From: Notolepis coatsorum
Lineage: Eukaryota > Chordata > Actinopteri > Aulopiformes > Paralepididae
DNA: 64,000 bases
Direction of reading: 5' to 3'
Assembly (NCBI GenBank): GCA_963971535.1
Contig: OZ020593.1
Span: forward strand, 38,359,932 to 38,423,931
The notes beneath the pieces are model-generated. The model was not told the DNA's origin, did not search any database, and saw only the letters and a list, made by a program, of their open reading frames with translations. This document shows positions 43,461-57,996 of the stretch, one piece after another (position 1 is the stretch's first letter; each line of letters begins with the position of its first letter). Made by a program: the position numbers and the translations under genes.

Positions 43461-43587
43461 TAGGGATGGGAATTGATAGGATTTTATCGATACGATTCCA
43501 TTATCGATTCTGCTTATCGATTCGATTCTTTATCGATTCCCTTATCGATACCTGATCAATTTATAATTTAAATAAATAAATTGGAAA

Positions 43588-44010
43588 TGCAACAGAACTA
43601 CATTTAGTCATTTAGCTGACGCTTTTATCCAAAGCGACTTACAAGTTCTGTACGACAAGCCATCAGGAAGGGCACAACTCTATCAGCTGAGCAACAATGT
43701 TCATCAAAGTGTTGAGTGCTACAGTGTAGGTTAGTTTATTAGGACAAGTGCATGACAGTACGGTTAGTTAGGGTTAGATATATTTTTTTTTATTCAGATA
43801 ATGGTTGAAGAAGTGCGTCTTTAGTCGACGGCGAAAGATTGGACGTGATTCGGCTGTCCTAACTGGGGTGGGTAGTTCATTCCACCATTGTGGGGCAAGG
43901 ACTGAGAATAGGCGACTTCTCTTTGATGACCCTCCCGGAGCTCGGATAGGAGTAGGTCTGAGGCGGCCAGAAGATGCAGAGCGTCGGGGTCTAAGCTGGT
44001 TAGAATAACA
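43588..44010 (-). mobile_element. 5'-truncated L2-type LINE in repeat X copy 2
   Basis: Same tail (TTTAGTCATTTAGCTGACGC on this strand) and same 5' junction as the copy at 34303-34728. Confidence 0.83.
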
Positions 44011-44233
44011 ACATGCAACTTGACATTTCTGATTGTCATTTATTGTTGAGCCCCCATGTCAGAAAAATACAAAAACTGTAAAAAATAAAATATTAACTAT
44101 AGCCTACACTTAAATAAAATAATGTATTTGAGATTCTCTTAAAATGTATTTATTTTTTTATTCTTAAACGAATTTAATCTATTGAATAACAGGTTGTTAT
44201 TCCTCTGACTTCTGTCTCTCACTCACACTCTCT

Positions 44234-44340
44234 CACACACACACACACACACACACACACACACACACACACACACACACACACACACACACACACACAC
44301 ACACACACACACACACACACACACACAGAGAGAGAGAGAG
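44234..44340. repeat. (CA)n/(GA)n microsatellite
   Basis: About 47 CA units followed by (GA)n. Confidence 0.95.
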
Positions 44341-53682: not shown

Positions 53683-54459
53683 TAGGCCTGCCGCGATAAG
53701 CAATAAATCGATTAATTGCCGCGATAATTAAAATGAATGCAATGATTTTGACGGGCGCGATTAATTGCTATTTGCGCGTTTGTTTTAATGAGGCGGAACC
53801 AGTGCCCCTTGTCAGTCACTCTCCGTGTGGGTTGGCCGCTGGCGTTACTACAGAGCACAGCACGGGAGCTCCGTGGGGCAGTAGCAACGCCACATATTTA
53901 GCTTACCTACATTTCTCAATAGTGTTGCTCCTTTTAACCAAGTAGCGTTATTTGTAGTGTAACGTTAGAATAACACAGAATAACGTTAATACAATTACAT
54001 GCATCATTGTTTACAATGAACGGGTGGGGCTAGTCAAAGCACTGGAGACGGGGACAAGTTAAACATGAATTAATTTATTATAACGGGTCGTTTTCGAGTC
54101 GTGCTGCAGTGCCTACGCACCACAGCTATTCTATTATATACGGCTTTGACGCGTCCTCCTCATCGTTGATTGCCTGTAGTAGCTGCATCTAACGTTAGTA
54201 GCTAACGTTAAAACTAAAAAACACAACCAGACGAGACAAGTTGTCGGCTAGGATAATCGCAACAATACTTCCGGTCCGGTCGGTGGGCTTCAAAATAAAA
54301 GTCTTAAACCGGAAAAGACGGAGCGGTGGGCTTCAAAATAAAAGTTTTGGGAAATAAATTTCTCAAATTTTTTTTTAACCGGTCGCAATAATATCGCTTA
54401 TCGCGATATTTTCGGGGGCAATTAATCGCCCAGCAAAATTTGTTATCGTGGCAGGCCTA
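53683..54459. mobile_element. hAT MITE, 777 bp
   Basis: The ends are TAGGCCTGCCGCGATAA and TTATCGTGGCAGGCCTA, inverted with one mismatch. The perfect 8-bp duplication GTCTAGAC lies at 53675-53682 and 54460-54467. Confidence 0.95.
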
Positions 54460-56302
54460 GTCTAGACTCTAATTCACAACTTGAAACACAATATATAAAT
54501 AGAAAAGTTAGAAACAAAACTTGCCCGTCTACAAACACAGGTAGATCTCTCCCTCTCTCCTTCTCTCTCTCACACACAGCGCGACGTGGAATCGATTCGT
54601 TACACAATCAGACCTATTATATACCAAGAATAACTTCAGTATGAGTACAGGGCTGTACACATATTTTGCATATTGTTAAACGAGCCAAGGCTAGCTATTA
54701 AACTATCGATATGAATCGAAAATCTGGGACCCTGATGTAAACAAGACAAACGTCTTTCTCTGGTCTGCATCCCCTTAACAATTGTGTGTATTGAGCCGTA
54801 CTGTATTGTACCCATTCTGCAATCTGTTAATAAAGTTCTCATTCATTCATTCATTCAAACATAGACGATCTCTCTGTCTCTCGGATCAATCAAATCAAAT
54901 AATTAACACATGTATGTTGTCATTTTAAACAACTCACCATTCATTCATTATGCATCAGCAGCAACACAAACACGCACATGGAAACGGGGTAACGTTAACC
55001 TTATGTCGACTGTAGTATTGTATGACCTCGACATAACGTTTAAACGTTAACGTTACTCCGTGTCCATGCACTAAGTGGCCAGCTAAGCTAACTGAGCTAA
55101 CAGCTAGCAGTAGCTGTAACGTTAAAACGTTATGCGGCATCAGTAGACAACGTATCATGTATTAAACTAGAGTTAAGATCGCTAATCTACCTTGTTGTTG
55201 GCTTGTTGATAAAGTATATCCACTCCATGGCATTGTCCATCCAGCCTGTGTTGATGTCCATCCATTGTCCATACATGTCCCTCCACACTGCCTCCATAAT
55301 ATAGCTTGTTGTTAGTTAGCCAAGAGCTGTGTCTTTGTCCATTTCCGCCTCGAACAGCCTGCAAACTACCTGGCGTTCTATCGCCATGCTCTAAGACAAA
55401 CTCTAACCTTAACCAACTTTGAAAGAGTGCCTAAGCTCAGTGTAGTTGCTGTTGTTGTTGACGAGTCGACTGAACTGCTCTCTGTAAGCCAACCCGAGAA
55501 ATGCGGCAATGGAAAAAAACTGGCATCGCGTCGGCCAATCAGAGAGCGTCTCCGCGAAATGCGGCTATGGAAATTCTTCACGGAAGTTCACACGCTGCTG
55601 GCTAGACCGCTTCAAATCGCGCTCGGATTCCAACATAATAGTCATATTTCAACGCACAACGCCGTATGCACTGATTGGCTGTGACGGAGACAGCGATCAA
55701 ACTGTGACGCGCACGCAGAGCGCTATCGCTTCTTGCCCGGGCGAGAAATACGAAAAAAAAAAAAAAACGTCACTTCCTGCCCATGAAAACGATGTTTTTT
55801 TTATTTAGATAATAACGTTATATTGTGCATTGGAAATACAAACATACTTAAAATGAGTAAATATTATTAATTTTAAACATGTTTATATTATTTATAGGGC
55901 TATAAAACACAAAAACGAAAAAGTTTTATTGTCTTGTTCTCTGATTTAACAGCAGCTGGCCAGCAGGTGGGTCGGCGCCCTAGCACCCCTAGTGGTAGAG
56001 CCGCCACTGGCTGCAGACCCACATACCCCGCCAGCTTTGCCGGCACAGTGCAGTACTCCAATTCAGCCATTGGCAATTCAGCTGTTGGGTGGGGGGCGCT
56101 GCTGAGCGGTCCCCAGACCGGACCTGAAAACACCGCTGCTCTGCGGGTCTGCAGCTGGATGCTTCTCGCAAATCTAGCAGCAGCAAGCTCGTGCTGACAA
56201 CAGCGTTGTCATTATTAGACCGGCTGCTTGGTGAAGCAACGATGAAACAAATGTAATGATTGTTTCGTTCATCGCATAGGCTATTTAATTTTAGCCTATT
56301 TT

Positions 56303-56795
56303 TTTTATTTTTTATTGGTCTTTTTCCCCCTCCATTTTCCTCCGATTTTTCTCCCATCCCAATGTTAGTCGTATGCCAATTCCCAGTCCCTTCCTGGTCG
56401 CTGCGCACTTACCCCCCACAGTCAGATCATCTGGGAGAGTGGAGGCTACCACGTGCTTCCTCCGACACACGTCCAGCCAATCACCGCTTCTTTTCACCTG
56501 GCAGCGCGGATTCTCATCGAGAGGGCGTAGCGTGTGGGAGGATCACACTATCCCCCTCAAGTCCTATCCGCGCTTAGCAGGCGCCCCGACCGAACTGTAG
56601 GAGTCGCTGTTTACAACGACCCGGACCCACCCCGCCAGCTTCTCCCACCCTCTAATACAGCCAATTGTATTAGTGCAGACGGCCAGCCAAGCTGGTGACA
56701 ACCCCGGAGCTGTGAGCTGGATTCGAACAGGCGAATCCAGCTCACAGCTCCGGGGTTGGTGACGAACGCAATCTCCGCTCGGCCACCTAACCGCC
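56303..56795 (-). mobile_element. SINE A, reverse
   Basis: T-rich start, CTCCCATCCCAATGTTAG and the tRNA-like head region near 56700-56790. A perfect 17-bp duplication, TAATTTTAGCCTATTTT, lies at 56286-56302 and 56796-56812. The inverted arm at about 53330-53400 lacks the SINE and serves as a partial empty site. A local inverted repeat (GAGCTGTGAGCTGGATTCG and its reverse) lies at 56708-56752. Confidence 0.93.
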
Positions 56796-57996
56796 TAATT
56801 TTAGCCTATTTTAATACAATTCAAATAATCTAATTGTGCTTGGAGGGAATTATTTTCACCGGACATTATGACCAGCACCAAGTCGTTGGGAGGTGGAGAT
56901 ATACATCACGCAAACCCACGATAATGTTGCCGTCTCTCTCTGCCAAATTTCTCAGTTCTTCGCTTGATATAATTAATATAAATGTCCAATATAACGGAAT
57001 TCGTTAGCTCATAAAAATGTGATTATAACAGACTGCTGTTTATTAATGTCGGGCAGACTGCCCACCGACACCTCAAGTCGGCAGGAGCACGAAATCTCGA
57101 GGGACTGATTTTATTTGGAATATATTAATGACTGTATATACGCAAAAGTAGCCTAGTTTTAAGTTAAAATATTATAAATGCCTTGAGGATGTCATTCTTT
57201 ATATAGGCCTATCAATTGTTTTTAAGCTCAATAAACTCTGACCGGAATTTATCCCATTTGTCCGGTAGATTGAAATCTACCGGACACTCAGACCTGCAAA
57301 AAAAATTCTAACGGAAACCCTGGAGTGAACATGTTAATCTTTCTGAAAAAGAACTGCTAGAATACTCAATCAGCAGCAGAGTAGTTCATTGCTGCTAGAT
57401 TGTTTGTTTAATCAGTTGTAAAATACTTTCATTTATTTGTTATTTAAATATATAGATGTGTATTTTTTGATCAGCAGAATAGTTAATTGCTGCTAGAGTG
57501 GTTTGTTTACCCTTGTTTTATACTTATATTTTGTAAAATACAATACCTTTATTTATTTTGTATTTAAATATATAGATGTGTACCTTTTTTTGTTAATTTG
57601 TAAAACATTTTCTTTTAAATAAACATAACATTTATTTAAAGATGTGTGTGACTGTATATGTTGTTCTATGTTCTAAATAAATAATAATAATAATAACTTT
57701 ATTTGTATAGCACCTTTCATACAGGGGATTGCAGTTCAAAGTGCTTTACATCAGTAAGATGTAAATAATAATAAAGTAATAATACATTATTTATTTATTA
57801 AATATTAAGTTTGAAATATAATTTTTTTTACAACTGAGGTAGGTAGAATAAATTTTTAGAGACTAAAGTACAGAAAACAGGTGCCGCTGGGTACCGGTAT
57901 CGATTCACAGGTACCGGTATCGGTTCAAATGTGAAAGGTACTCATCCCTACTCAGTACTATCCGGCTACTACACTTCCTAATAGTACAGACGGTAC

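Follow-up and report, generated by a model that had tools for sequence, protein, structure and literature searches.

A nest of transposons in an intron of a FUBP-family gene of Notolepis coatsorum, enclosed by ends of two hAT families

At positions 43461-57950 of the 64,000-nucleotide stretch of Notolepis coatsorum DNA analysed here (the window), several transposons lie one inside another, and the locus raises the question of whether their order of insertion can be read from target-site duplications (TSDs) and from empty sites within the window itself, with no second genome. We consider it close to certain that the nest is real, with transposons inserted one into another, and the named elements (Table 1) together span 13,108 of its 14,490 bp. 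The locus serves as a worked example of such a reading, and it also displays two traps, namely a TSD that forms part of a tandem array, and the arrival of cargo together with its host, so that the order of nesting need not equal the order of landing at the locus.

Table 1. Coordinates of the features of the nest, its host intron and its relatives in the window
Feature	Coordinates	Strand	Remarks
Intron of the FUBP-family gene	28253-61388	+	33,136 bp; GT/AG edges, two flanking coding exons; contains the nest
piggyBac-like paralogue	32564-34176	+	without the Mutator-like insert; left edge also TTAACAC
hAT family A, second copy	34182-36523	+	without its first 9 bp, own right end kept; hAT inside at 35029-36000
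Outer unit	43461-57950		flanked by CTCAGTAC (43453/57951); left end family A, right end family B
hAT family A, outer copy	43461-44854	+	left end intact, final 26 bp absent; LINE fragment 43599-43992
Family B-like stretch (suggestive)	44855-45122	+	resembles subterminal part of B ends
hAT-1	45131-51198		TIR TAGGGCTGCAAC 12/12; TSD GTGGGCAG (45123/51199)
piggyBac-like element, within hAT-1	45391-48605		TTAA both sides
Mutator-like element, within piggyBac-like element	46150-48392		TSD GTTTGGGCG (46141/48393)
LINE, 5'-truncated	46576-47903	-	reverse transcriptase frame 46763-47902; left edge approximate
Fragment earlier called DIRS	47904-48228	+	copy at 11923-12485; joined directly to LINE
SINE-like insert, A-rich tail	51229-51417	+	TSD GTGTAGCTCAG (51218-51228, 51418-51428)
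hAT-2	51986-53149		TIR TAGAGCCATATG 12/12; TSD GGGGACAC (51978/53150); contains 136-bp tandem repeat
hAT-3	53201-57322		TIR CAG[C/G]GTTTCCGT 11/12; TSD GAGTGAAC (53193/57323); long inverted inner arms
hAT-4, within hAT-3	53683-54459		TIR 11/12; TSD GTCTAGAC (53675/54460)
SINE-like insert, hAT-3 right arm	56302-56796	-	TSD AATTTTAGCCTATTT; relative at 62177-62649
hAT family B, right end	57805-57950	-	second copy of B end at 41672-41822

Duplications, element ends and the host intron

A first-pass annotation of this DNA had reported exact TSDs and inverted ends for the nested elements. The six TSD words were all located, each pair abutting the ends of its element, and the inverted ends were present where that annotation had placed them. 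Matches of this kind could be chance agreements chosen by eye, and this reading was weighed by scanning the entire window for identical 8-bp flanks next to ends in which 10 or more of 12 bases form an inverted match, with 20 Markov-regenerated shuffles as the control. The scan recovered 12 pairs, five of which are 8-bp TSDs of the first-pass annotation, whereas the shuffles averaged 0.45 and never exceeded 3; when the ends were relaxed to 9 of 12 bases, there were 18 pairs against 3.45 in the shuffles. In favor of chance, the 9-bp level of the Mutator-like element, taken alone, does not rise above the shuffles because its outermost end bases differ (for 9-bp flanks and 9 or more of 12 end bases, the whole window had 0 real pairs and the shuffles a mean of 1.3), and the outer TSD sits in an array. 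Against it stand the excess of 8-bp pairs and the paralogous empty sites described below. We therefore regard chance as exceedingly improbable, and for the inner levels the shuffle scan and the empty sites together tell against it as the source of the TSDs and ends.

The four elements hAT-1 to hAT-4 all show a perfect 8-bp TSD and short terminal inverted repeats (TIRs) beginning with TAG or CAG, in which 11 or 12 of 12 bases agree. No Pfam match to a hAT transposase was found among the 14 frames of the window that were searched; non-autonomous hATs lack the hAT transposase gene. The elements of the nest are ordinary transposons, apparently either non-autonomous or decayed, and the nest is explicable without invoking any function. 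Searches of the window with ARAGORN, and with Rfam at its gathering threshold, found no match. The finding of zero changes over 150 TSD bases would limit the age to about 2%, a figure that is biased low because the TSDs had been selected for matching perfectly, with the TTAA level omitted.

The location within a gene intron, as claimed earlier, is supported by the GT/AG edges of the 33,136-bp interval and by an N-box match of its two flanking exons, the joined product of which matches the FUBP1 N-box chains 8p25_A (E 7.5e-05) and 2kxh_B (E 1.3e-04). Judging from these matches, the host gene belongs to the FUBP family and the interval is probably intron 1 of fubp3, given that we take FUBP3 to be a closer match for the product than FUBP1. 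When two of the 12 scan pairs that were judged unlikely (14554-27071 and 35028-44353) are set aside, ten plausible hATs are left in the window. Seven of these, including the nest which prompted the question, start within the 33.1-kb intron; the other three start in the 30.9 kb outside it, where other repeats occur too. The hAT counts and the element coverage are too little either to name the intron a special sink for insertions or to exclude one.

Order of insertion at the inner levels

The order claimed for the central levels, in which hAT-1 received the piggyBac-like element and the latter received the Mutator-like element, is borne out by the TSDs and, for the last step, by a paralogous empty site. 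The piggyBac-like element has TTAA on either side in addition to TIRs. Among 833 TTAA pairs that were scored, the pair at 45387/48606, in which 13 of 16 end bases agree, is the best of those enclosing the Mutator-like element, with three non-enclosing pairs reaching 14. In the piggyBac-like paralogue, the parts matching 45478-46146 and 48407-48564 meet at 34011/34019, and this junction carries one GTTTGG word, constituting an empty site for the Mutator-like insert. The TSD of this insert is about 9 bp long, with GTTTGGGCG present twice in the nest and one related word in the paralogue. Because the scan shows no excess of 9-bp pairs, this level rests on the match of the inner ends, AGCCGAAGAGTGC, together with the paralogous empty site. 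It is from the length of the TSD that we assume the superfamily to be Mutator-like. The frames searched inside this element gave a Pfam match to RVT_1 only, and those searched inside the piggyBac-like element gave either RVT_1 or no Pfam match.

Fragments of LINE and DIRS elements had been proposed as the innermost level. The LINE, which is presumably L2-like, is supported by a match to RVT_1 (E 3.8e-20); the DIRS assignment found no support, with no Pfam match for two frames near the copy of the fragment. This copy differs from the fragment by 1.2% over 243 bp (12243-12485), and the adjacent 99 bp are 91% alike. The truncated LINE would have entered the Mutator-like element, itself within the piggyBac-like element within hAT-1. 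Its 3' part resembles the LINE fragments of both copies of hAT family A, and the copy in the Mutator-like element differs from that of A by 2.0%. At 47895-48240 the 5' end of the LINE is directly joined to the adjoining fragment, which may represent a template switch or an end-filling chimera; a 32-base pattern for the LINE junction, in which one letter differed from the true junction, had 0 matches in the window at up to 3 mismatches.

The remaining part of the nest had been described as two adjacent hATs, the second of them holding a third hAT and a SINE, and the TSDs and ends agree with this description. Furthermore, the left inverted arm of hAT-3 runs uninterrupted where the right arm bears the SINE-like insert, and thereby provides its empty site. 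Thus read, hAT-2 and hAT-3 would have landed near each other, and hAT-3 would then have received hAT-4 and the SINE-like insert. The SINE-like insert with an A-rich tail at 51229-51417 was absent from the first-pass list. We also noted that hAT-1 (49277-50984) and hAT-3 (54763-55445) have stretches in common, which run in the same order though the ends of the two elements differ (89%, 84% and 87% alike over 91, 129 and 68 bp, respectively).

A second, smaller nest is found in the same intron at 32564-36523, where the piggyBac-like paralogue adjoins the second copy of family A, the latter with its own hAT (35029-36000). This hAT has the TSD CCCTGTCC, and the outer copy of A has a single such word at 44355-44362. 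The piggyBac-like paralogue holds a SINE-like insert (32684-33369) with the TSD TATTGCTAAATT; at 45494-45505 the nested copy carries this word just once. Within the SINE-like insert there is a further insert (32978-33180), with the TSD AAAAGATGCGACGGC.

The outer unit and the ends of families A and B

The outermost level had been interpreted as a composite unit inserted as a whole. The flanking CTCAGTAC words are indeed present, but a single ordinary insertion is not upheld, given that the ends belong to two families, that the inner end of A is lost, and that the TSD is a word of an array. The right end of A's second copy matches A-left in 15 of 16 bases, and the right end of B matches it in 10 of 16. 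The outer A-left and B-right ends agree in 10 of 12 outer bases, with the outer 8 bases, TAGGGATG, common to both, and both carry ATCGAT-type motifs. The outer copy of A ends 26 bp before the right end that is seen in its second copy. For the stretch that follows, 44855-45122, eight comparisons were made, pairing each of its strands with four end sequences. It scored z values of 4.4 and 4.2 against the two B ends on the + strand and 4.5 against one B end on the - strand (0 of 300 shuffles as good in each case), and 2.6 against A-left on the + strand (6 of 300 shuffles as good). Its B-like character is weak and strand-ambiguous, and is at best suggestive. Two patterns for the A and B ends had no match among the viral contigs of a non-fish collection.

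The word CTCAGTAC belongs to a 20-bp array and occurs four times in the window, namely as the two TSD copies and at 59816 and 59856, which fall in the array spanning 59797-59879. To the left, the outer unit is flanked by a similar array, with one-mismatch forms of the word at 43404 and 43433, and either side of the unit has a single exact copy of the word. Joining the outer flanks re-forms one array unit. Since the word is part of an array, the outer TSD is weaker evidence than it would appear; since it is exact only once per side, the perfect duplication is still compatible with a single insertion.

We somewhat favor an explanation of the whole locus as ordinary nested transposons with an outer unit made of two fused hATs, and we give about an even chance to the more specific proposal that A and B both inserted at the same CTCAGTAC site of the array. 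According to the latter, a hAT from each of the families A and B would have taken the same site, and the short stretch of contact between the right end of A and the left end of B would then have been deleted, removing 26 bp of A, about 16 bp of B (an estimate from a weak alignment) and one copy of the TSD. The abutting CATCCCTA...TAGGGATG ends would form a palindrome, which is a plausible cause of such a deletion; folding of the A-B junction gave nothing notable (z -1.0). Fusion at one site is favored because A-left pairs better with A's own right end than with that of B, because A stops short and is followed by a B-like stretch, and because the joined flanks re-form an array unit. It is disfavored because the B-like reading of that stretch is weak and ambiguous as to strand.

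Three other histories were weighed. A single hAT transposase could have excised A-left and B-right as a pair, in the manner of a macrotransposon, and the whole, possibly including some of the nest, would then have entered CTCAGTAC in one event. A perfect 8-bp TSD around the whole unit, the re-formed array unit, and the agreement of the outer ends and their ATCGAT-type motifs are all in line with this, as is the existence of Ac macrotransposons in maize, in which hAT ends of separate elements likewise surround a large segment with an 8-bp TSD (PMC9910405). However, excision is observed in the maize case reported there, whereas here there is end structure only, and the ends come from different families (PMC9910405). 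Such an event has no need for lost inner ends, yet that of A is absent and that of B seemingly so, and the TSD word is part of an array; we consider it rather unlikely. Were it true, the 14.5-kb outer unit would be a vertebrate macrotransposon that brought other elements as cargo into the intron. Alternatively, A and B may have landed in separate array units, in the same phase, with a deletion between them removing the inner ends and the intervening array. The period of 20 bp, the repetition of the word in the similar array at 59797-59879 and its near copies in the left flank point in this direction, but the same phase is required twice and the left flank has no second exact word, making this too an improbable course. 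It is more doubtful still that a single long hAT family has both the A and the B ends, 34182-36523 being a shortened derivative of it with a different right end: the common outer 8 bases and the TSD would be accounted for, but A-left is matched more closely by the right end of A's second copy than by that of B.

Both A copies contain the same LINE fragment, with 5 differences in 392 bp (1.3%), and therefore this LINE predates the arrival of A at the locus and was carried in by A. The earlier claim that all the landings took place within the intron thus fails for this fragment. The copies of A's own parts diverge by 1.4-3.4%, the B ends by 9.6%, the arms of hAT-3 by 3.1%, the SINE-like insert from its relative by 8.3%, and the piggyBac-like copies by 19-31%. 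When divergence is compared with the nesting, as the first-pass annotation had proposed, the piggyBac-like values set against those of A (1.3-3.4%) speak, at face value, against the claimed order. They also count against nested transposons with two fused hATs as the best explanation, because the piggyBac-like copies are far more diverged than A. As copy divergence dates a family and not this landing, the values neither prove nor break the order, and divergence was rejected as a test of it. The lower values of A relative to the B ends suggest that A may be younger, and the divergences would also fit A as a late neighbor of an older B nest. The finding is ordinary, and a genome-wide look is warranted for the A-B outer unit alone.

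Relation to known systems and other elements of the window

TinT is said to be an analysis of nested-transposon interruptions. Insertions within insertions yield relative order and are said to be numerous in mammalian genomes, and the reading of the present nest is like such interruption analyses in this respect; these are genome-wide counts, whereas here one locus is read through its TSDs and in-window paralogues (PMC2517846). At dmrt1bY of medaka, Rex1 lies within Izanagi and has been co-opted, which is likewise a case of a transposon within a transposon at a fish gene, but there a regulatory role has been shown, whereas the nest in the FUBP-family gene is known from sequence alone (PMC5789577). 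In the Atlantic cod, hAT-derived MITEs are heaped up at inversion breakpoints, and resemble our nest in that several hAT-derived elements are crowded together in a fish genome; those of cod belong to a single family with long TIRs and are repeated in tandem, whereas here different families are both nested and side by side (PMC12368964). In fish genomes, hAT and L2 rank with the most common superfamilies (PMC6817897), and the nest is ordinary transposon biology.

Several other elements were observed in the window. The open frames at 19152-22709 resemble by eye those of an LTR retrotransposon of the Ty3/Gypsy type, and a related stretch lies at 22135-22709; the one frame searched there had no Pfam match. 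Further hAT-like elements are seen at 1525-2135, 7496-7789 and 12817-13623, and another at 60139-60834 has the TSD CTCTCACC and 12 of 12 end bases in agreement. Immediately beyond the outer unit there is a second Mutator-like element (57997-59174), with the TSD AGACGGTAC at 57988-57996/59175-59183 and with ends that resemble those of the nested Mutator-like element.
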